Assembly: GCA_002371695.1 (NCBI GenBank)
Contig: DFGG01000159.1
Location: forward strand, 1-7,985
Length of the DNA stretch: 7,985 nt
From: a bacterium UBA3756
GTDB taxonomy: Bacteria > Bacteroidota > Bacteroidia > Bacteroidales > Bacteroidaceae
Direction of reading: 5' to 3'
Translations under genes and position numbers: made by a program
The notes under the pieces: model-generated
Told to the model about the DNA's origin: nothing
Seen by the model: the letters and a program-made list of their open reading frames with translations, nothing else
Database searches by the model: none
In this document: in pieces, positions 3-7,985 of the stretch
How the letters are laid out: each line of letters opens with the position of its first letter
Numbering within the stretch: the stretch's first letter is position 1

Positions 3-602
3 ACGGGCTACTTCATCCAGAAGCTGATTCCCCACCAGTGCAACGAGGGCGACCGCTGGTACGACTGGGACTACGCCTTCCAGAGCTACCTGCCCTACAT
101 GCGCCTGGCTGATGTCTACCTGATGTATGCTGAGGCACAAGCCGCCATAGCAGGCAGTGTGGCAGACCTGAATACAAGACCCATCTACTGCACGTCGCTG
201 TCGGCAGTCGACGCTATCAACAAGCTGCGCGACCGTGTCAACTCCAGCGACTATCCCATGGAGCATGTGCCAGCCAACCTGCGTGACACCCGTGAGCACT
301 TCATCGACGAGGTACGTCGCGAGCGTGCCGTGGAACTTTCCTTCGAAGGTTTCCGCTGGTGTGACCTTCAGCGCTGGCTTCTGCTGACCGAACCTCCCTA
401 CACGGTGAAGTACTCTCATGAATTCGAGCGTTTGGAGACTGCCGACTGGTTCAAGAACCATGATCCGAAGGATGCCAAGATCGGTAACTTCCACAAGAAG
501 GAGCTCATCACCCGTCGCCTGGAGTCAAAGCACTACTGGTTCCCGCTTCCCGACAAGGATATCTATCTCTATGAGGGATTCCCCCAGAACCCGGGTTGGT
601 AA
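3..602 (+). CDS. SusD/RagB-family surface glycan-binding lipoprotein, C-terminal part (5' end outside window)
   Basis: SusD-family proteins are outer-membrane lipoproteins that sit as a lid on a SusC transporter and bind glycans at the cell surface. The frame is open from the first base; the first complete codon is at 3, giving 199 visible residues. It begins TGYFIQKL, which corresponds to the RTGYYLQKL segment of the second SusD in this window. Then comes the SusD C-terminal helix YMRLADVYLMYAEA, followed by AINKLRDR and the hallmark block VRRERAVELSFEGFRWCDLQRW. It ends in the usual YWFPLPDKDI...QNPGW tail, so the stop at 600-602 is the natural end. The ATG at 99 lies inside the conserved fold and is not the start. 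The signal peptide and N-terminal tetratricopeptide-like half lie upstream, where a partner susC would be expected. By position it would match xusB of xylan loci, but the fragment alone does not fix the substrate. Confidence 0.93.
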   Translation, partial: TGYFIQKLIPHQCNEGDRWYDWDYAFQSYLPYMRLADVYLMYAEAQAAIAGSVADLNTRPIYCTSLSAVDAINKLRDRVNSSDYPMEHVPANLRDTREHFIDEVRRERAVELSFEGFRWCDLQRWLLLTEPPYTVKYSHEFERLETADWFKNHDPKDAKIGNFHKKELITRRLESKHYWFPLPDKDIYLYEGFPQNPGW

Positions 603-603
603 G

Positions 604-636
604 ACATTGAACATTGAACATTGAACATTGAACATT
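604..636 (+). repeat. Heptamer tandem array 1, abutting the susC start
   Basis: Four complete ACATTGA units and a final ACATT fill the spacer from two bases after the TAA stop to the base before the ATG at 637. All units are identical. A TGA occurs once per seven bases, so successive stops fall in different frames and all three frames are closed. There is no Shine-Dalgarno sequence, as is usual in Bacteroidota; this A/T-rich array occupies the ribosome-binding region. No hairpin terminator is present. Confidence 0.95.
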
Positions 637-3555
637 ATGAATAGAATGAAAACAAACATATTGCTCTTTGCCATGTTTGCCGCGTCGCCACTGACGGCCC
701 ATGCCCAGGAAACGGCTGACGATGCTGACTCTACCGTGGTGAAGAAGAAGGTACATGTGGCCTTCCGCGACAAGGACGCCGACCAACTCCTCGGCGGCAT
801 CTCATACGTCGACATGGAGGAACTGCAGAAGAAGGATTACACGATGGGTAGCCTCGAAGACATGTACGCACTCGTCGGCGGATGGAACGGCAACAGCCTC
901 TGGGGCATGGACAACGACCGTCTGGACACCAACGACAACGACAACCTGCCGCTCGTGATCATCGACGGTGTGAAGCGTCCGTCGAACAACGTGCTCCCGT
1001 CCGAAATTGAGCAGATTACCTTCCTCAAGGGCGCTCAGGCCGTAGTACTCTATGGCGCCAAAGGGGCCAAGGGGGCCATCCTCATCACCACCAAGCGCGG
1101 CACGGTGGACGGTCTGCAGATCAAGGCCAATGCCAATACAGGTTGGCACGTGGCCAAGGAATTTCCCGAGTATCTGGGTAGTGCCGAGTACATGACGCTC
1201 TACCGTGAGGCGCTGATTAATGATGGTCTCGCTATACCTGAAAAGTACTCTCAGCAGAATATCTACAACCACGCCTCAGGGGTGAATCCCTACCGTTACC
1301 CCAACGTGAACTACTACTCCGACGAGTATGTCCGCAAGGCATACAACCGTTCGGAAGGTACGCTTGAGATACAGGGTGGCGGCTCTCGTGCCCACTTCTA
1401 TACGAACATCAACTACTACCGCAATGAAGACCTGATCAACTTCGGTCCTGCGAAGGATAACTACACCGACCGTTTCAGCGTTCGCGGTAATGTGGACATC
1501 GTCATCAACAAGGTCATCAAGGGCTGGGCCAATGCCAGTGCCACTTTCTACAATGCCAACCGGAACAAGGGTGACTTCTGGGGCGAGGCCGCTACGATGC
1601 GTCCTAACTTCCCTGAGAACGCTGCCCCGCTGATTCCCATCAGCATGGTAGACCCCAATGCCAGCAAGGCCCTGGCCATCCTGGGCAAGTCGCTCAACCT
1701 GCTCGACGGCATGTATTTCCCCGGTGGTACGAAGGCTACTCAAACCAATGCCATCGCCGACACCTACTTCGGGGGTAAGACGAAGGCAGTCAGCCGTCAG
1801 TTCCAGTTCGATGCCGGCATCATCTACGACATGAGCAAGTTCGTCAAGGGACTCTCCTTCCGTACGCTGTTCTCCATCGACTATGCTGCGAACTACAGCC
1901 TGTCGTACGACAACAAGTACGCCGTGTTCATCCCCACCTGGAGTAACTACAACTCGCAGGACGTGATTGTCGGCCTGACACAGCAGAACGATGAAATCGT
2001 AACCGGACACATGGCCATGTCTGACACGAAGTACCGCCAGACCATCACCTGGAACGGCCACTTCGACTACGACCACACCTTCGGCGGCAAGCACCACGTG
2101 ACGGGTATGCTGCTCGCCAATATGTTCACCACCACGGCCAGCGGCACCTATCACCGCTACGCCAATGCCAACCTGGGACTGCAGGCAGGTTACGACTATA
2201 TGGGTCGCTACTTCGCCGACATTTCGGTGGCCGGTGTACACTCCGCCCGCCTTCCCAAGGGACACCGTGAAGCACTCTCTCCCTCGTTCACCATCGGCTG
2301 GAACCTGGCCAGGGAGAACTTCATGAAGGACAGCTTCGTCGACGACCTGCTCATCAGCGCATCGTACAGCAACCTGAATGAGGATATCGATATCTATATG
2401 GGTGACTCGAATACCAAGTATTATTATCTCTACGATGCCCTCTGGTCGACAGGCGGCAGCGGCTTCTCCTGGAACGAGGGTGTCAGCACCGACCGCACGT
2501 TCTCCACAGCAGGTAGCAACCCCTCGCTCGACTTCATCCACCGCAAGGAATGGTCGGTCAGCCTGCGTGCTTCGCTATTCAACAAGCTCATCAGTGCCAA
2601 CCTGACATTCTTCAATACCGATATGGATGGCTTCATCACACAGAACCCCACCATCTTCCCCTCGCACCTGCAGGGAGGACTTTCCGGCAGTTCGTTCAAG
2701 CCCGCCATCAACAACAACATCCAGAACCGCAAGGGTCTCGACTTCAGTGTCACCTTCCAGAAGCAGATTGGCAAGGTTCATACAACGCTTGGTGTGGTCG
2801 GAACTTGGCTCACCACGAAGAACAAGAAGTACGATGAACTCGTAGAGTATGACTACCAGCACCGTGAGGGTCGTCCCCTCGATGCCATCTGGGGCTATAA
2901 GTGCCTGGGCTTCTATACTGAAGATGATTTCGTAAGGGATGCTGACGGCTATCTTACGTCAACCCTGAAAAACGGGGTTAAGCCAATGATCGGCGGTACC
3001 ATCCAGCCTGGCGACCTGAAGTATGAGGATGTCAACGGCGACGGCCGTCTCGACAGCAAGGACATGGTGGAGATTGGCAAGTCAGGACTCTACGGTGCAC
3101 CATTCACCCTCGGTGTGAACCTGACGCTGAAGTACAAGAACTTCACGCTCTTCGTACTCGGCAACGGCCAGTTCGGTGCTAAGGGTCTGAAGAACGGTTC
3201 CTATTATTATATGAGCGGCGATGCCAAATACTCCATCAACGCCCTTGGGCGCTGGACATCCGAGACAGCAGCAACCGCCACTCATCCCCGTCTGACGACG
3301 CTGAGCCACGCCAACAACGCATCTTCCTCCACCTTCTGGCTCTACAGCACCAACCGCTTCAACCTGCGTAAGGTGCAGCTCACCTACGACTTCCCCAAGG
3401 ACTTGTTCCAGGGCAAGTGGGTGAAGGAGCTCTCCATCTATGTGAATGGCAACGACCTGCTCACCTTCGCCAAGGAGCGCAAGCTGCTGGAAACCAGCGT
3501 GGGCTATGCTCCCCAGACCCGTTTCTATAATCTCGGTGTAAAGGTAACCCTTTAA
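637..3555 (+). CDS. SusC/RagA-family TonB-dependent outer-membrane glycan transporter, short form
   Basis: This is a TonB-dependent beta-barrel that imports oligosaccharides together with its SusD lid. The chosen start gives 972 residues. An upstream in-frame TTG at 628 lies inside the repeat array and is unlikely to be used; ATG 646 is also possible. A signal peptide ends near TAHA|QE (residue 23). The plug domain covers about residues 45-160 and carries the SusC signatures PSEIEQITFLKGAQAVVLYG and AKGAILITTKRG. The barrel follows, with the late conserved loop DVNGDGRLDSKD (about 798-809) and the C-terminal LSIYVNGNDLLTF segment. There is no N-terminal carboxypeptidase-regulatory-like domain; the mature protein passes almost directly into VKKKVHVAFRDKD, which may contain the TonB-box equivalent. 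A D/N-rich stretch (about 93-105) lies in the plug. Paired with the susD 34 bases downstream, it is positionally like xusC; the symbol is withheld because the substrate is unproven. Confidence 0.95.
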   Translation: MNRMKTNILLFAMFAASPLTAHAQETADDADSTVVKKKVHVAFRDKDADQLLGGISYVDMEELQKKDYTMGSLEDMYALVGGWNGNSLWGMDNDRLDTNDNDNLPLVIIDGVKRPSNNVLPSEIEQITFLKGAQAVVLYGAKGAKGAILITTKRGTVDGLQIKANANTGWHVAKEFPEYLGSAEYMTLYREALINDGLAIPEKYSQQNIYNHASGVNPYRYPNVNYYSDEYVRKAYNRSEGTLEIQGGGSRAHFYTNINYYRNEDLINFGPAKDNYTDRFSVRGNVDIVINKVIKGWANASATFYNANRNKGDFWGEAATMRPNFPENAAPLIPISMVDPNASKALAILGKSLNLLDGMYFPGGTKATQTNAIADTYFGGKTKAVSRQFQFDAGIIYDMSKFVKGLSFRTLFSIDYAANYSLSYDNKYAVFIPTWSNYNSQDVIVGLTQQNDEIVTGHMAMSDTKYRQTITWNGHFDYDHTFGGKHHVTGMLLANMFTTTASGTYHRYANANLGLQAGYDYMGRYFADISVAGVHSARLPKGHREALSPSFTIGWNLARENFMKDSFVDDLLISASYSNLNEDIDIYMGDSNTKYYYLYDALWSTGGSGFSWNEGVSTDRTFSTAGSNPSLDFIHRKEWSVSLRASLFNKLISANLTFFNTDMDGFITQNPTIFPSHLQGGLSGSSFKPAINNNIQNRKGLDFSVTFQKQIGKVHTTLGVVGTWLTTKNKKYDELVEYDYQHREGRPLDAIWGYKCLGFYTEDDFVRDADGYLTSTLKNGVKPMIGGTIQPGDLKYEDVNGDGRLDSKDMVEIGKSGLYGAPFTLGVNLTLKYKNFTLFVLGNGQFGAKGLKNGSYYYMSGDAKYSINALGRWTSETAATATHPRLTTLSHANNASSSTFWLYSTNRFNLRKVQLTYDFPKDLFQGKWVKELSIYVNGNDLLTFAKERKLLETSVGYAPQTRFYNLGVKVTL

Positions 3556-3589
3556 AGAATTAAGAATTGAGAATTAAGAATTGAGAATT
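3556..3589 (+). repeat. Heptamer tandem array 2, abutting the second susD start
   Basis: The entire 34-base spacer between the TAA of susC and the ATG at 3590 is a 7-base repeat of a different sequence family, AAGAATT alternating with GAGAATT, so the higher-order period is 14. Each unit carries TAA or TGA, again closing all three frames. The array ends in ATT directly before ATG, in the same phase as the other three arrays. Confidence 0.95.
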
Positions 3590-5425
3590 ATGATTACCAA
3601 GATCTATAAATCATTGCGCAGCCTCTGTGCCCTCAGTCTTCTCTGTGCCCTCTGTACGTCCTGCGACGACATGTTCAATCCTGCGGATGAGAACAACCGC
3701 ACCGAGGATGCCATGTACGAGGAGTCTAAGTATGCGCACGGCTTGCTCATCTATGGCTACGACCGTCTGCCATACATCACGACCACCCAGACAGATATTG
3801 CTACCGACGATGCCGTGACCAATGTGACGAGCAGCGCCTATCTGAACATGGCAACCGGTACCTGGGCCTCCGACAACAACCCCATGTCTCAGTGGGACAA
3901 ATGCAAGGACGGCATCCAGTATGTCAACCTCTTCCTCTCCAAGGTGGAGCGGGTGAAGTGGGCCCCCAGTGCCGCTTCCAAACAGCAGATGTTCGTCGAC
4001 CGCCTCAAGGGCGAGGCCTTCGGACTGCGCGCTCTGTTCTACTACTATCTGCTGATGGCTCACGGCGGCTATGCTGACGACGGCCAGCTCTATGGTGTGC
4101 CCCTGTTGCTCACTCCTGAAGACGGTAGTTCCGACTTCAATCAGCCCCGCGCTACATTTGCCGACTGCATGAAGCAGATCTTTGCCGACTGTGACAGTGC
4201 CATGGCTCTTCTACCCGCCTCTTATGACGACATCAGCAACAACAATGAGATTCCTGCCAAGTACCGTGCCCTGGGTGCTGAGTACTCCGGCTTCAACCTC
4301 GTGTTTGGTACGAAGGCTCGTAACTTGATGTCGGCCACCATCGCCGAGGCCATCAAGGCGCAGGCAGCACTACTCGCCGCCAGTCCCGCCTTCCGCGACC
4401 AAAGCGGTGTCACCTCTGCCGAGGCTGCTACGCTCTGCGCCAACGTGTTGAAACGCATCGGAGGCATGGACGGCTTCGACCCCACGGGCAATGTCTGGTA
4501 TAAGAACAAGGCTAAGCTCGAGCCCGCAGCTGCCGAAATGCCTGAGATTCTCTGGCGTGAGGACCGCCACAAGAATGCCGACCAGGAGCGCGAGAACTAT
4601 CCTCCCACCCTCTACGGTCAGGGCCGCACCAATCCGTCGCAGAATCTGGTAGACGCCTTCCCCATGCGCAGCGGACGTCCCATCACTGATGCCAACAGCG
4701 GTTACGACCCGCAGAATCCATACGCCAACCGTGACCCACGTCTGTCAGACGACGTGATCTACAACGGCATGACGTTCCGCAAGACCACCATCATCACGGG
4801 TACTTATCCAAATGATAAGAACGAGACGGACGACAACCTGAACAGCATCGGCACCTCCACCCGTACGGGCTACTATCTGCAGAAATTGCTCCGCGACGAT
4901 GTCAGCCCGCTGTCAAGCTCACTCATCGAGCAGCAGCACATCTATCCGCGCATCCGCTACACGGAGATATTCCTGGCCTACGCCGAGGCTGCCAACGATG
5001 CCTGGGGGCCCAAGGGCGATCAGGCTGGCGCAGGCTTCTCGGCCTACGATGTCATCAAGGCCATCCGCAAGCGTGCTGGTCTCGGCACTGACGAGTACGG
5101 ATTGCCGCTTCCCGAGGGAGACGCCTATCTCGAGGAGTGTGCTGGCGACCAGACCAAGATGACCAACCTCATCCGCAACGAGCGCCGGCTGGAACTCTGC
5201 TTCGAGAACAAGCGCTTCTGGGATCTCCGCCGTTGGATGTTGCCGCTCAACGAGACTGTGAAGGGTGTGAAGATCGACCGCAACGAAGAGACTGGTGTCC
5301 TCACCTATAACTATATGGACGTGGAGGAGCGCCGTTACGACAGCTCTTATCAGTGGTACGGCCCCATTCCTAAGGCCGAGCTGCTCAAGTGGAGCAACCT
5401 TAAACAGAACAAGGGCTGGCAGTAA
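3590..5425 (+). CDS. SusD/RagB-family surface glycan-binding lipoprotein, complete
   Basis: This 611-residue protein is the glycan-binding partner of the SusC encoded 34 bases upstream. The start ATG 3590 follows the repeat array; the in-frame TTG at 3581 is inside the array and was rejected. The lipoprotein signal peptide ends in LCTSC, with lipidated Cys25 followed by two Asp residues, an acidic pattern consistent with lipoprotein export to the cell surface in Bacteroidota. SusD landmarks are WDKCKDGIQYVNLFLSKVE, RLKGEAFGLRALFYYYLLMA (from about 138), the helix YTEIFLAYAEAAND (from about 457), and RNERRLELCFENKRFWDLRRW (from about 529), then the terminal YGPIPKAELL...QNKGW. It is longer than B. 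thetaiotaomicron SusD (about 550 residues), which is common for xylan-type and other SusD homologues. It is positionally like xusD. Which glycan it binds cannot be read from the sequence. Confidence 0.95.
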   Translation: MITKIYKSLRSLCALSLLCALCTSCDDMFNPADENNRTEDAMYEESKYAHGLLIYGYDRLPYITTTQTDIATDDAVTNVTSSAYLNMATGTWASDNNPMSQWDKCKDGIQYVNLFLSKVERVKWAPSAASKQQMFVDRLKGEAFGLRALFYYYLLMAHGGYADDGQLYGVPLLLTPEDGSSDFNQPRATFADCMKQIFADCDSAMALLPASYDDISNNNEIPAKYRALGAEYSGFNLVFGTKARNLMSATIAEAIKAQAALLAASPAFRDQSGVTSAEAATLCANVLKRIGGMDGFDPTGNVWYKNKAKLEPAAAEMPEILWREDRHKNADQERENYPPTLYGQGRTNPSQNLVDAFPMRSGRPITDANSGYDPQNPYANRDPRLSDDVIYNGMTFRKTTIITGTYPNDKNETDDNLNSIGTSTRTGYYLQKLLRDDVSPLSSSLIEQQHIYPRIRYTEIFLAYAEAANDAWGPKGDQAGAGFSAYDVIKAIRKRAGLGTDEYGLPLPEGDAYLEECAGDQTKMTNLIRNERRLELCFENKRFWDLRRWMLPLNETVKGVKIDRNEETGVLTYNYMDVEERRYDSSYQWYGPIPKAELLKWSNLKQNKGWQ

Positions 5426-5429
5426 CGTT

Positions 5430-5471
5430 GGACATTGAATATTGAACATTGAATATTGAACATTGAACATT
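5430..5471 (+). repeat. Heptamer tandem array 3, abutting the DUF1735-type gene
   Basis: Six 7-base units, right-aligned to the ATG at 5472, read GGACATT, GAATATT, GAACATT, GAATATT, GAACATT, GAACATT. This is the longest of the four arrays and the only one with non-repeat bases (CGTT, 5426-5429) between the preceding stop and the array. The C/T alternation at the fourth position gives a partial 14-base higher-order period. Confidence 0.95.
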
Positions 5472-6599
5472 ATGATAAAGATGAATATGAAGAAGACGGG
5501 ATTAGCATTGTGCTTTGCGTTTGGTGCATTGTGCATGACTTCCTGCTACAACAGCGAGAGGGAGTTCCCCGACTATGAAGGCGGCACTACAGCCTACTTC
5601 GCCTACCAGAACCCGGTGCGTACGCTCGTACTTGGCAATGACATCTATGACAATTCGCTCGACAACGCCCACAAGTGCCAGATATGGGCTACCATGGGTG
5701 GTGCCTACAGCGGACGCGACGCCGTGGCCGACATCGCTGTCGACGAGTCACTCTGCAACAACCTCTATTTCACCGATGAGGGCGGCAATGCAGCTGAACC
5801 CGTCAGGCCCCTGCCTACGTCCTACTATCAGCTGGCGTCCAACTCCATCCCCTACAATGGCGATGCTCGCGGCTATGTAGAGGTACAGCTCACCGATGCT
5901 TTCTTCAACGACGAGAAGGCTGCCCAGGACACCTACGTCATCCCCCTCGTGATGACAGGTGTCCGCGGCATCGACAAGATACTCACCGGTACGCCCCGTG
6001 AAGGTCTTTCTCCCTCGCGCACCAATACTGAGGACTGGGATGTCCTGGCCAAGGACTATGTGCTCTACCTGGTGAAGTACATGAACCCCTGGCAGGGTAA
6101 GTACATCCGCCGCGGTGTGGACAATGTGACGGAGAAAGGCGTTACCACGCAGATTGTCCGCAAGGACATGTCGATGTACAACTCCGACCTGGAGCATTAC
6201 AAGGAGAACCCCGTCAACCAGAATGACGAGATCTGCGGCATCACCACCAAGAACATGACGCAGGCCATCTTCCCCGTATCCTTCAAGACCTCGGGTGCTT
6301 CAGTATCCTGTAACCTCATCCTGACATTCTCCGGCAACCAGTGCACCATCTCTACTGATGATGCCGACGTGACAGCCTCCGGCTCCGGCGAGTTCATCGA
6401 AAAGGGAAGCGGCAGGACTGAATACAAGGACTACCAGTGGCAGGGAGAAGGCAAGGCCGACGAGCGTGACATTCTGCGTCTGGCTTACGACGTCAAGTTC
6501 AACAAGAGTGATATCCAGGTGTCCACCGCTGATACGCTGGTCATCCAGACCCGTGAGTCCAACAAGAAGGTGTTCTTCTCTACAAAGTACGTTAAATGA
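5472..6599 (+). CDS. DUF1735-type surface lipoprotein, probable glycan-binding accessory protein (XusE position)
   Basis: This 375-residue predicted lipoprotein has a signal peptide ending in ALCMTSC, with lipidation at Cys25. The N-terminal part (about 30-170) starts with TTAYFAYQNPVRTLVLG and resembles DUF1735, a beta-sandwich domain frequent in surface glycan-binding proteins of Bacteroidota PULs. A second domain starts near residue 195 (DYVLYLVKYMNPWQGKYIRRG) and runs to the C-terminus. That motif is typical of the domains following DUF1735 (DUF5627/DUF4361 class; I cannot say which without a profile search). No catalytic motif is apparent. It lies between susD and the GH10-like gene, where xusE is found in xylan loci, so a role in holding substrate at the cell surface is likely but inferred. 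Starts at 5481 and 5487 are also possible; 5472 was chosen because it abuts the repeat array in the same phase as the other genes. TTG 5463 was rejected. Confidence 0.88.
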   Translation: MIKMNMKKTGLALCFAFGALCMTSCYNSEREFPDYEGGTTAYFAYQNPVRTLVLGNDIYDNSLDNAHKCQIWATMGGAYSGRDAVADIAVDESLCNNLYFTDEGGNAAEPVRPLPTSYYQLASNSIPYNGDARGYVEVQLTDAFFNDEKAAQDTYVIPLVMTGVRGIDKILTGTPREGLSPSRTNTEDWDVLAKDYVLYLVKYMNPWQGKYIRRGVDNVTEKGVTTQIVRKDMSMYNSDLEHYKENPVNQNDEICGITTKNMTQAIFPVSFKTSGASVSCNLILTFSGNQCTISTDDADVTASGSGEFIEKGSGRTEYKDYQWQGEGKADERDILRLAYDVKFNKSDIQVSTADTLVIQTRESNKKVFFSTKYVK

Positions 6600-6632
6600 A
6601 GATTGAACATTGAACATTGAAGATTGAAGATT
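6600..6632 (+). repeat. Heptamer tandem array 4, abutting the GH10-like gene
   Basis: The whole spacer from the base after the TGA stop to the base before ATG 6633 is made of AGATTGA, ACATTGA, ACATTGA, AGATTGA and a final AGATT. Outer units carry G and inner units carry C at the second position, a symmetrical arrangement. A TGA recurs every seven bases, and ATT precedes the ATG as in the other arrays. Confidence 0.95.
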
Positions 6633-7985
6633 ATGATTACCAAGAATTATAAGAAACGACTGATAGGTCTACCGTTTATTGGTTATTGTTTAACGGTTAT
6701 TGGTTTGTCCTCCTGTGCCGACTATAACGTGACGGACGACTTCGTGGCACAACCCGATCCGACCGTCGTAGCACCTTACAACGACCTGGCTCCCATCAAG
6801 TCGTATATCAATAGGGACACATACGCCAACATGTCGCTCGGTGCCCAGCTGCAGGTGTCGGAATTCAACAAGCAGGAGCTGTCGCATGCCGCTGTCGTCA
6901 CCAATTTCGACAACGTGGCTTTCGGCACCTCACTGATGTCGGGTAACATCGTCAATGCCAAGGGCGTGATGAACTTCCTCGACATGAGCGACCTCCTGGC
7001 CCATGTCCAGGATATTGGTTATGAGGTTTACGGTAGTCCTATCGTGGCCAATGCCAACCAGGCCGACGAATGGTTGAGCACGCTTACTGCTCCCATTGAG
7101 ATTGTGGTAGACTATGTGGAGGGAAAGTCGGTTAACTTCAATGAGCTTGCAGTGGGCAAATTCGGTTCGGAAGACGGATCGACCGCTGCCGAGATTGTCA
7201 AGTACGACGGTCAGAACGTACTGAAATTGGCCGCCGGACTGAAGCCTACCCACGTGCGCATTATCGATGGCTTTGAGGTTGACCCCAAGGCCACCTATAC
7301 CGCCACCTTCTGGGCCATGTCTGAGAAGGATGCATCGTACGACGTGAACTTCTCCGGCAATCCCATCAAGGGTACAGGTCCTAACGGCAAGTGGACCTTC
7401 AAGGCCGGCAAGTGGACCAAGGTCGTCGTTGAGGCTCAGAGTGCCCCCGACGCCACTGAGGGTTACCTCCAGATAGACAACTCACGCACGGGTGTCATCT
7501 ATATCCAGAAGGTAGAGGTAGGCTACTATCCCGACAACCACCGTCCTCAGACAGCCCAGGAGCTGAACGACACCATCAATTACGCCCTCAATGCCTGGTG
7601 TGACGGTCTGATGAAGATCAACGAGGGACGTATCTCGTCCTTCGACCTCATCGACGAGCCTATCGACACGAAGGCCGAACTTGAGAACGGCATGTACGAC
7701 CTGAAGCACTCCACCGAGAAGATTTTCTGGCAGGACATCTTCGGCAGTGCCAACTATGCGCCCACTGTGTCGCGCGTGGCCAGTGCAGCCTTCGAGCGTC
7801 ATGGTGGCATCACCTCCGACCTGCGCTTCTTCATCAGCGAGCGCGGACTCGAGGACCAAAAGACTTTCGAAAGCTTGAAGTACTGGATTGGCGTCTGGGA
7901 TGCCAACGGTGCCAAAATCGATGGTATCAATGCCAAGCTGAACCTTATCTACAGCGAGAATGCCGAGACACAGGCCCAGAATGTG
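6633..7985 (+). CDS. GH10-like lipoprotein with inserted CBM4/9-like module, active site apparently degenerate (3' end outside window)
   Basis: The frame is open from ATG 6633 to the window end (451 residues, no stop). The signal peptide ends in GLSSC, with lipidation at Cys28. Residues about 65-155 follow the start of a GH10 barrel (SLGAQ, NFDNVAFG, VMNFLDMSDLLAHV, GYEVYGSPIV). Residues about 160-300 form an inserted beta-rich module, after which GH10 similarity resumes (FDLIDEPI, IFWQDIFG, LRFFISERGLE, GAKIDGINAKLNL). The split layout is that of Bacteroidota Xyn10C-type endoxylanases, and the position after the DUF1735-type gene matches xyn10C. By manual alignment, however, the canonical residues are changed: GNxMK reads GTSLM, GHTLVWHxQ reads GSPIVANAN, WDVVNE reads FDLIDE, DYN reads ERG, and GIGTQMH reads GINAKLN. 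Only the acid/base-position Glu342 seems kept; the nucleophile region lies beyond the window. A surface glycan-binding pseudoenzyme is as likely as an active xylanase. Confidence 0.85.
   Translation, partial: MITKNYKKRLIGLPFIGYCLTVIGLSSCADYNVTDDFVAQPDPTVVAPYNDLAPIKSYINRDTYANMSLGAQLQVSEFNKQELSHAAVVTNFDNVAFGTSLMSGNIVNAKGVMNFLDMSDLLAHVQDIGYEVYGSPIVANANQADEWLSTLTAPIEIVVDYVEGKSVNFNELAVGKFGSEDGSTAAEIVKYDGQNVLKLAAGLKPTHVRIIDGFEVDPKATYTATFWAMSEKDASYDVNFSGNPIKGTGPNGKWTFKAGKWTKVVVEAQSAPDATEGYLQIDNSRTGVIYIQKVEVGYYPDNHRPQTAQELNDTINYALNAWCDGLMKINEGRISSFDLIDEPIDTKAELENGMYDLKHSTEKIFWQDIFGSANYAPTVSRVASAAFERHGGITSDLRFFISERGLEDQKTFESLKYWIGVWDANGAKIDGINAKLNLIYSENAETQAQNV
7110..7532 (+). other. CBM4/9-like (galactose-binding-fold) module inserted in the GH10-like domain
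   Basis: This segment (about residues 160-300 of the last protein) breaks the GH10 barrel between the third-strand motif (YGSPIV) and the acid/base segment (FDLIDEPI). It starts near NFNELAVGKFGSEDG and has the alternating pattern of a beta-sandwich: NVLKLAAG, YTATFWAMS, KWTFKAGKWTKVVVE, then IYIQKVEVGYY. Those elements fit the CBM_4_9 pattern, in which carbohydrate is bound in a groove. Trp252, Trp261 and Trp227 are candidate aromatic residues, though which face ligand cannot be seen. Boundaries are approximate. Only one module seems present, in a length (about 140 residues) that would not hold the pair of modules found in some homologues. Confidence 0.65.

Follow-up and report, generated by a model that had tools for sequence, protein, structure and literature searches.

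The stretch of DNA considered here, referred to as the window, comprises 7,985 nucleotides (nt) of contig DFGG01000159.1 from the assembly of bacterium UBA3756 (GCA_002371695.1), and a Pfam domain search showed that it is filled by a SusC/SusD polysaccharide-utilisation operon with all genes on the plus strand (Table 1). Its nearest relatives among 80 fetched loci were found in Prevotella and related assemblies, many of them of rumen origin to judge by their titles, and the closest has a SusC 94% identical to that of the window. All four intergenic spacers of the operon are arrays of a seven-base tandem repeat (heptad). Tandem Repeats Finder (TRF) placed period-7 arrays at 604-636, 3555-3590, 5424-5471 and 6597-6632, the base 7 nt later was identical at 107/119 positions summed over the four spacers, and the shift-7 values observed were reached, for each spacer, by 0/5000 dinucleotide and 0/5000 composition shuffles. 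Every array ends with ATT immediately 5' of a start codon (ATG at 637, 3590, 5472 and 6633; 4/4 arrays, 0 nt gap), and because the spacers are of unequal length (34, 34, 46 and 33 nt) the phase they have in common is relative to the ATG rather than to the stop upstream. A preliminary description of this DNA had reported period 7 with ATT before ATG in all four spacers and had held that four such junctions would hardly arise by chance, both of which were confirmed. Its listing of the four arrays also stands, except that the third array proper begins near 5432, 3' of CGTTGG, and that two weaker period-7 runs in signal-peptide coding regions had been omitted. No Rfam family matched the window at gathering thresholds, and a known RNA family was rejected on that result.

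Table 1. Arrays, repeat runs, cassette cores and genes of the window
Feature	Position	Strand	Evidence
Heptad array, ACATTGA unit, 4.7 copies; SusD-SusC spacer; ends ATT then ATG	604..636	+	TRF; shift 7, 26/27 over 603-636
Heptad array AAGAATT/GAGAATT; SusC-SusD spacer; ends ATT then ATG	3556..3589	+	TRF; shift 7, 24/27
Heptad array GAACATT/GAATATT between SusD and BT_3987-like genes; ends ATT then ATG	5432..5471	+	TRF; shift 7, 33/39 over 5426-5471
Heptad array GAACATT/GAAGATT between BT_3987-like and GH10-like genes; ends ATT then ATG	6600..6632	+	TRF; shift 7, 24/26
Degenerate heptad run, signal peptide of BT_3987-like gene	5505..5536	+	17/25 at shift 7, 10/11 at shift 21
Heptad run TTATTGG, lipoprotein-type signal peptide of GH10-like gene	6676..6705	+	TRF period 7, 73% match; 17/23 at shift 7, 9/9 at shift 21
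Cassette core ATTATGATTACCAAGAT, start of SusD-like gene (MITKI)	3587..3603	+	Y/R pattern repeated in relatives, 16 hits in G002
Partial core copy ATTATGATTACCAAGA, start of GH10-like gene	6630..6645	+	Read from sequence
SusD/RagB gene, 3' end	3..602	+	PF07980
SusC-like TonB-dependent receptor	637..3555	+	PF07715 (Plug)
SusD-like protein	3590..5425	+	PF07980, PF14322
BT_3987-like / DUF5627 protein	5472..6599	+	PF08522, PF18620
GH10-like protein, continues past window end	6633..7985	+	PF00331 (24.6 bits, cut-off 22.1)

The distribution of such arrays was followed in 81 records (1.69 Mb), consisting of the window and the 80 related loci, which share the same SusC and are related, and in stretches of individual genomes; the genomes compared are mostly or all metagenome assemblies. 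Genes were called as ATG open reading frames (ORFs) of at least 100 aa, picked greedily. The stretches of genomes G002 and G003 were chosen mostly by contig number, while those of G004 and part of those of G001 and G003 were drawn from contigs with pattern hits, so that their array densities are biased upward. The G001 and G002 stretches overlap loci L001 and L002 (e.g. L148, L175), and a few arrays are counted twice in the pools of ORF arrays and of arrays straddling a start codon.

A count of exact tandem arrays lying mostly outside called ORFs gave 44 of period 7 in the 81 records, and no other period from 3 to 15 exceeded 3. In the 80 SusC loci, gaps of 21 nt or more between genes on the same strand had a local period of 7 in 124/405 cases and of 8 in 15, each remaining period from 4 to 12 being found in at most 6. 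Gap samples from single genomes gave period 7 in 19/96 (G004), 20/98 (G001), 7/86 (G002), 2/77 (G003) and 0/77 (G006), the corresponding counts for period 8 being 1, 5, 4, 5 and 2; as period 8 is as common as period 7 or commoner in G003 and G006, the preference for 7 does not extend to these two. At the orthologous SusD-SusC junction, whose two ends were fixed by homology, period 7 was present in 50 of 78 spacers (the window included; 3/81 records that lacked a start or an upstream end were left out). Three further spacers had period 8, 1 had period 9 and none had any other period from 4 to 12. The units at this junction are of the ATTGAAC, ATTGANA, AATGATT, AGTGAAT, AATTAGA, GAGTTAA and AAAACCA types, and 24 distinct units occur among the 76 periodic gaps of 137 at two junctions. 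One and the same junction is held by period-7 arrays of differing sequence in different species. SusD-SusC spacers without an array also exist, e.g. in L040, L046 and L069. The window and L001 are ~91% identical in aligned DNA, yet by eye a single one of the four spacers is the same in both, the other three being unrelated; L002, more distant than L001, has a SusD-SusC spacer identical to that of the window at every letter.

The consensus RARNATT given in the preliminary description fits the window arrays and proved to be one of several unit types in relatives. Three such units followed by ATG gave 38 hits in 18 of 201 family genomes sampled, 14 of them in G002, against 8 for the reversed control; as the reversed pattern outnumbers the pattern in G001 (70 vs 15) and G003 (142 vs 2), RARNATT was rejected as the defining unit. 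The accompanying claim, that the unit differs while period and ATG phase persist, was upheld at the window junctions and recurs in relatives. Period-8 arrays (GGTTRTAA; AACTYGTC) occupy similar places at L029 9881-10000 and in L163 and L168 (G003). The dominant unit of the G004 sample is AAACATT, which precedes starts in both orientations (L115, L122, L125), and its reverse, AATGTTT, includes ATG, so that the start codon can itself be part of the repeat unit. At L001 15962-16242 a 281-nt spacer contains repeats of the CTCACGGAT/CTCACAGAT type with inverted copies, its counterpart in the window being a 33-nt heptad array.

The position of arrays relative to genes was found to vary between samples. 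In the SusC loci there were 155 arrays in 66.8 kb of tandem gaps, 8 in 20.0 kb of convergent gaps and 8 in 25.3 kb of divergent gaps. The respective numbers were 23 in 46.4 kb, 11 in 16.0 kb and 6 in 20.9 kb for G002 and G003 combined, with a further 21 in 633 kb of ORFs; 40 in 24.2 kb, 0 in 8.5 kb and 9 in 9.6 kb for the partly hit-sampled G001; 25 in 18.8 kb, 5 in 4.6 kb and 3 in 6.6 kb for the hit-sampled G004; and 0, 1 and 0 for G006. Autocorrelation at shift 7 was strongest in tandem gaps and was also positive in the convergent gaps of G002. Confinement of the arrays to tandem gaps was rejected on the equal density of convergent gaps in G002 and G003. The preliminary description had reasoned that equal occurrence in all kinds of gap, with no phase preferred, would speak against a start-anchored element, and the outcome is divided, with similar convergent and tandem densities in G002 and G003 and a tandem excess in the SusC loci; the heptad array as a general start-anchored signal is weakened. 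Period-7 arrays inside ORFs lie towards the 5' end, 57/76 beginning within 120 nt of the called start. Judged by eye, many though not all of them code for the core of a signal peptide, e.g. LITYHLSLITS, FFTLHSSLF, FLLPLSSFL and FIICHLSF. The start-proximal fractions for other periods were 10/14 (period 5), 6/75 (6), 6/18 (8), 9/119 (9), 4/12 (10) and 4/11 (11), so that period 5 has the same preference for the 5' end, in small numbers. The signal peptide of the SusD-like gene of the window contains a period-9 repeat, CCTCTGTGC, at 3622-3655.

Phase was tested after removal of arrays with identical last 40 nt (188 to 177). Of the 177 distinct arrays in same-strand gaps 113 end within 6 nt of an ATG, and their phase relative to it carries 1.12 bits where 0.13 are expected (z 20.9), the z for phase relative to the upstream stop being 0.5. 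Restricting the set to one array per gene's first nine bases lowered z to 2.6 (n=59), one array per unit class gave 3.6 (n=30) and starts other than ATGATTAC gave 10.7 (n=93); by genome z was 3.5 in G002 (n=5), 0.8 in G001 (n=12) and -0.6 in G004 (n=14). The scan for a non-random phase that the preliminary description had suggested is thus positive in the aggregate and in G002, is weak once similar starts are collapsed and shows no preference in the small samples of G001 and G004; a phase lock as a universal signal was rejected on the same figures. Scored with a matrix built from 699 starts without arrays, the actual phase was among the best two of seven in 66/113 arrays, against 32 expected, in 15/32 arrays of the genome samples and in 3/14 of G004. 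This ranking, together with the collapse under relatedness, suggests that the ATG phase is partly what initiation free of a Shine-Dalgarno (SD) sequence prefers and is largely inherited. The window starts have A-3, A-6, A-13 and T-1 in 4/4 cases and A-12 in 3/4. In F. johnsoniae A-3, A-6, A-12 and A-13 act as positive determinants (PMC6847099), and the start logo of Bacteroidales shows A-3 and T-1, with positions -13 and -8 to -6 enriched in AT (PMC3155529).

Comparison of the region from -60 to +80 of 728 genes revealed that the sequence around the start can be shared by otherwise unrelated genes. Homology was taken as absent when BLASTP gave no hit at E 1e-3 after removal of 35 residues, a definition that remote relatives may escape; L271 and L272, for example, fall in separate BLASTP clusters yet both match DUF4960. 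Between genes without homology in this sense there were 103 in-register matches spanning the ATG, of which 24 extend 40 nt or more into the coding sequence, and 7 of these 24 lie within a single locus. Identity of at least 60% at +4 to +63 was found for 9/2941 non-homologous pairs within loci and 9/52062 sampled between loci, and for no pair in two control segments further downstream. The neighbouring genes at 12960 and 14881 of L005 have a near-identical leader that continues through the signal peptide to the Cys codon of the lipobox, beyond which they are unrelated. Among the matches listed, genes of L026 without homology have 140 nt in common at 85-91%, and in L021 such genes are 87% identical over 114 nt. 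In the window 5469-5536, the start and signal peptide of its BT_3987-like gene, is 84% identical to the start and signal peptide of a GH10-like gene in L001, whereas its identity to the signal peptide of L001's own BT_3987-like gene is 59%, the level of unrelated pairs. In a few of the relatives, then, start and signal peptide (in some cases with the leader) are near-identical between non-homologous genes, which split after the lipobox Cys. In the SusD-SusC spacer of L026 (9909-9991) there is a second, internal set of heptads with ATGATTACTAAGAT, resembling a tandem duplication of a cassette.

Short cores next to the arrays were also found to be dispersed. The core ATTATGATTACYAARAT, from the head of the SusD-like gene of the window, was present in 21/40 related genomes, with 16 copies in G002, the reversed control giving 0. 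In 48 distinct copies from the loci compared a period-7 run lies just upstream in 32 and in the following coding bases in 25; the ORF that the copy opens has 100 aa or more in 42 and is short in 6. Many genomes contain repeated copies of a core consisting of ATT followed by ATGATTACYAARAT, for the most part with heptads flanking one side or both. Of the 16 copies in G002, 11 head long ORFs, and the ORFs at the remaining 5 have 5-21 aa; ten of the eleven were scanned, with matches above cut-off to DUF4960 (two), GH10, DUF3108, SusD, PD40, TPR, Cthe_2159 and VTC, the sole match of the tenth being SusD-like and slightly under the cut-off. The mature parts of the proteins from core copies with long ORFs form 12 BLASTP clusters, at least two of which belong to the same Pfam family. 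Used as a query, one core cassette gave at least 51 matches in G002 (40 of 86 candidates scored). When residues 1-40 of a G002 protein, its repeat-built N-terminus, served as query in a homology search, only two 702-aa TPR-containing proteins were returned. The ATGATTACCAAGAT start occurs in addition in an aminotransferase-like protein (MITKIQPAERL; named by eye) of two genomes and in a VTC-domain protein of G002 (L286, L287, L284), neither of which would be expected to be exported.

A different element, GAAGAATTTGCTACCGC, gave 29 hits in G001 and was found in 17/40 genomes, with 0 for the control. In the contexts listed (L211-L240; L143, L144, L147, L188) it mostly follows heptads of the AGTGAAG type and is often half of a palindrome. 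A search with the coding part of the L026 cassette gave at least 55 places in the genome from which it comes (of 97 candidates, 40 were scored) and 31 in G019, and adjacent pairs within 200 nt were in the same inverted order in 23/23 cases (G026 and G019, two of six genomes searched), folded examples being hairpins with heptad arms. Arrays lie on both sides of the start at 28/1691 gene starts, where 11.3 would be expected if the two were independent. The units are complementary in 7 of these 28 pairs, against 1.1 under shuffled pairing, at least two of the seven being doubtful gene calls, and none of the seven is a gene of the window. Some start codons may consequently lie in the loop of a heptad hairpin. 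A start codon between complementary arrays of leader and signal peptide, possibly a hairpin, can be seen in L143 from 9231 and in L018 from 12917.

On balance we regard the spacers of the window as probably being the leaders of dispersed, heptad-built 5' cassettes, with a phase that is mostly inherited and partly selected for SD-free initiation. Such cassettes would be dispersed through a clade of rumen Prevotella, with units that vary by genome, and would provide the leader, the start codon and often the signal peptide. They may be copied by recombination or template switching, seeded on the left by the repeats and on the right by microhomology in the signal peptide or lipobox, after which the arrays would alter in 7-base steps. 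The phase would be mostly inherited because the ATG is part of the copied unit, and would be retained because a 7-base step spares the bases next to the ATG and because ATT before ATG gives the A-3, A-6, A-13 and T-1 favoured in SD-free starts of Bacteroidota. The leader itself would be a putative A/T-rich ribosome entry region that also closes the three upstream frames. Of the three guesses made in the preliminary description, a mobile spacer is the best supported, through the copied 5' cassettes and the dispersed heptad elements.

A number of observations must be set against this interpretation. Sharing of cassettes within a locus was detected in only 5/81 records, and the shared leader of L005, the clearest case, is A-rich and irregular, with no clean heptad array. 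Close orthologs (mature identity of at least 0.85) have signal peptides less than 65% identical in 18/284 pairs, which makes swaps a minority, and the GH10-like pair of the window and L001 is absent among the swaps listed, though its BLASTN match halts near the lipobox. The exact form ATTATGATTACCAAGAT occurs in 3/399 genomes of the wider family, G002 included; a second window core, ATTATGATAAAGATGAATATRAARAA, is unsupported as a dispersed element, having one copy each in 2/40 genomes. Leaders of core copies are only slightly more alike within than between genomes (0.649 vs 0.571), a difference reached by 113/2000 label permutations, and the arrays of G004 (n=14) have a random phase, which the matrix of non-array starts does not predict. 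Finally, the four window starts fold no more weakly than shuffles (z 0.90, 0.90, 0.29 and -0.96), so that low structure is attributed to composition: of the earlier guess of an unstructured, A/T-rich initiation region the composition holds, and an unusual lack of structure is unsupported.

It is conceivable that the arrays are neutral microsatellites, in which slippage favours 7-nt units that originate independently in free sequence and resemble each other through composition bias. Heptamers are the commonest longer simple repeats in many bacteria and slippage related to the polymerase footprint has been proposed for them (PMC4679880, PMC4692102), arrays do occur in convergent gaps and, on the stop-free strand, near the 5' ends of ORFs, and the G001 and G004 samples have no phase. 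What makes this account fairly unlikely in our view is the near-identity of cassettes of 100-140 nt, non-repeat bases included, between genes without detectable homology, together with the recurrence of unique cores beside arrays, the single order of all 23 adjacent pairs in inverted-pair palindromes and the sharing of identical units by 453/4339 array pairs within genomes against 183/11026 between genomes, ~300 of the 453 coming from G004. Phase variation by copy number, whereby slippage would tune leader length or shift the frame of the signal peptide and so switch lipoproteins of polysaccharide-utilisation loci (PULs), has a parallel in neuO of E. coli K1, which is phase-variable and for which heptanucleotide repeats are named, and in-frame arrays with a unit not divisible by 3 do lie in signal peptides; it is nevertheless highly unlikely, since orthologous junctions differ by unit and not by copy number alone.

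Binding of an RNA-binding protein (S1, cold-shock or other) to the heptads, with control of PUL translation, is very unlikely. S1, Csp and Csr proteins have been proposed for TAACTGA arrays (PMC4679880) and S1 on an unstructured leader for Prevotella (PMC3155529), but the unit varies between species at one junction while period and rough composition stay, several units occur in sampled genomes, and arrays are found in convergent gaps and near the 5' ends of ORFs. A further suggestion is that the arrays are insulators which block read-through into the next start by stops in all frames. Adjoining RARNATT units do make a TRA stop and, 7 being 1 mod 3, three units close all frames; each of the four window spacers has a stop in all three, and 24/24 distinct units close the three sense frames, compared with 42% for the reverse complement. 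Permuted units, however, give 89%, and 119/2000 permutations reach 100%, so that A-rich composition accounts for most of the closing. Without collapse by unit the values are 84% of arrays and 71% when permuted (z 2.9), and gene calling itself favours arrays with stops. Selection for all-frame stops is thus weak, the closing being not clearly above composition, and the insulator is a most improbable explanation.

A broader picture can be put forward tentatively, as a possibility that we rate somewhat below even. A putative mobile or recombining heptad family might serve these Prevotella as a plug-in start module, in which an array on the purine strand would supply the leader, a short core the start codon and an array on the stop-free strand the hydrophobic core of the signal peptide, with some arms complementary and the start codon in a hairpin loop. 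Unrelated proteins might gain expression and export by its capture, and PUL lipoproteins might keep swapping it. Leaders and signal peptides are normally treated as evolving with their own gene, and here, for some genes at least, they would be exchangeable parts built of repeats. If this is true, proteins would have a simple way of acquiring export, and the glycan-uptake operons of rumen bacteria a simple way of being reshuffled. The arrays of one period and different units at a single junction also form a natural series on whether 7-base spacing matters in SD-free initiation.

Heptanucleotide tandem families are known from heterocystous cyanobacteria as STRR sequences. In the vpma and vsa systems of Mycoplasma a single 5' region with a lipoprotein signal peptide stands before many surface lipoproteins, which resembles the cassettes described here; there a recombinase switches the expression site inside one gene family, whereas here several families follow the copies. 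Start-proximal heptamers are already known, while for the exchange of leader and signal peptide as a repeat-built cassette our searches of open-access papers gave no account. The preliminary description knew of no described role for heptamers as start-codon-anchored elements in PULs of Bacteroidota; to hold that start-anchored heptamers are undescribed would be mistaken: TAACTGA heptamers adjoin start codons in Beggiatoaceae, occur also in Cyanobacteria and are reported from five Bacteroidetes, in one of which 12/14 sets point towards a start codon at a distance of 1-43 nt (MacGregor 2015, PMC4679880). Like the present arrays they are intergenic tandem heptamers, in BOGUAY mostly facing and near a start codon, their sense strand closes all frames, a translational role has been proposed and the mechanism of their spread is not evident from that account (PMC4679880). 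All four window arrays have this placement, being intergenic, forward and within a few nt of the start; none contains the TAACTGA unit, their own units being ATTGAAC, AAGAATT/GAGAATT, GAATATT and GAAGATT. The TAACTGA system has one fixed unit (PMC4679880), whereas here there are many A/T-rich units that vary by genome, signal peptides contain arrays as well, and other genes are preceded by copies of start plus signal peptide, in some cases with the leader.

Heptameric simple sequence repeats, GGGAATC in Xanthomonas and GGGGAYT in Nostoc (PMC4692102), share with these arrays an intergenic excess of period 7 (found here except in G003 and G006), a genus-specific unit, variation in length between relatives and some inverted pairs; they differ in being G-rich and quadruplex-forming, and a start-codon cassette does not figure in the portion of that report relied on here. 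Many copies per genome, as in miniature inverted-repeat transposable elements (MITEs) and REP-like elements, were found for GAAGAATTTGCTACCGC and for the ATG core, though not for ATTATGATAAAGATGAATATRAARAA. The BrickBuilt MITE of Porphyromonas gingivalis is likewise a dispersed element of Bacteroidetes with an internal tandem repeat and unique flanks, but it has a 23-nt unit and small inverted-repeat ends, lies 49-591 nt from coding sequence and is described as carrying promoters, not a start codon (PMC4596501). With the SD-free initiation regions of Bacteroidota the window starts have in common A-3, T-1, A-6, A-12/-13 and an A/T-rich leader (PMC3155529, PMC6847099); those described there are single sequences, whereas here it is the phase of a tandem array that sets these bases.

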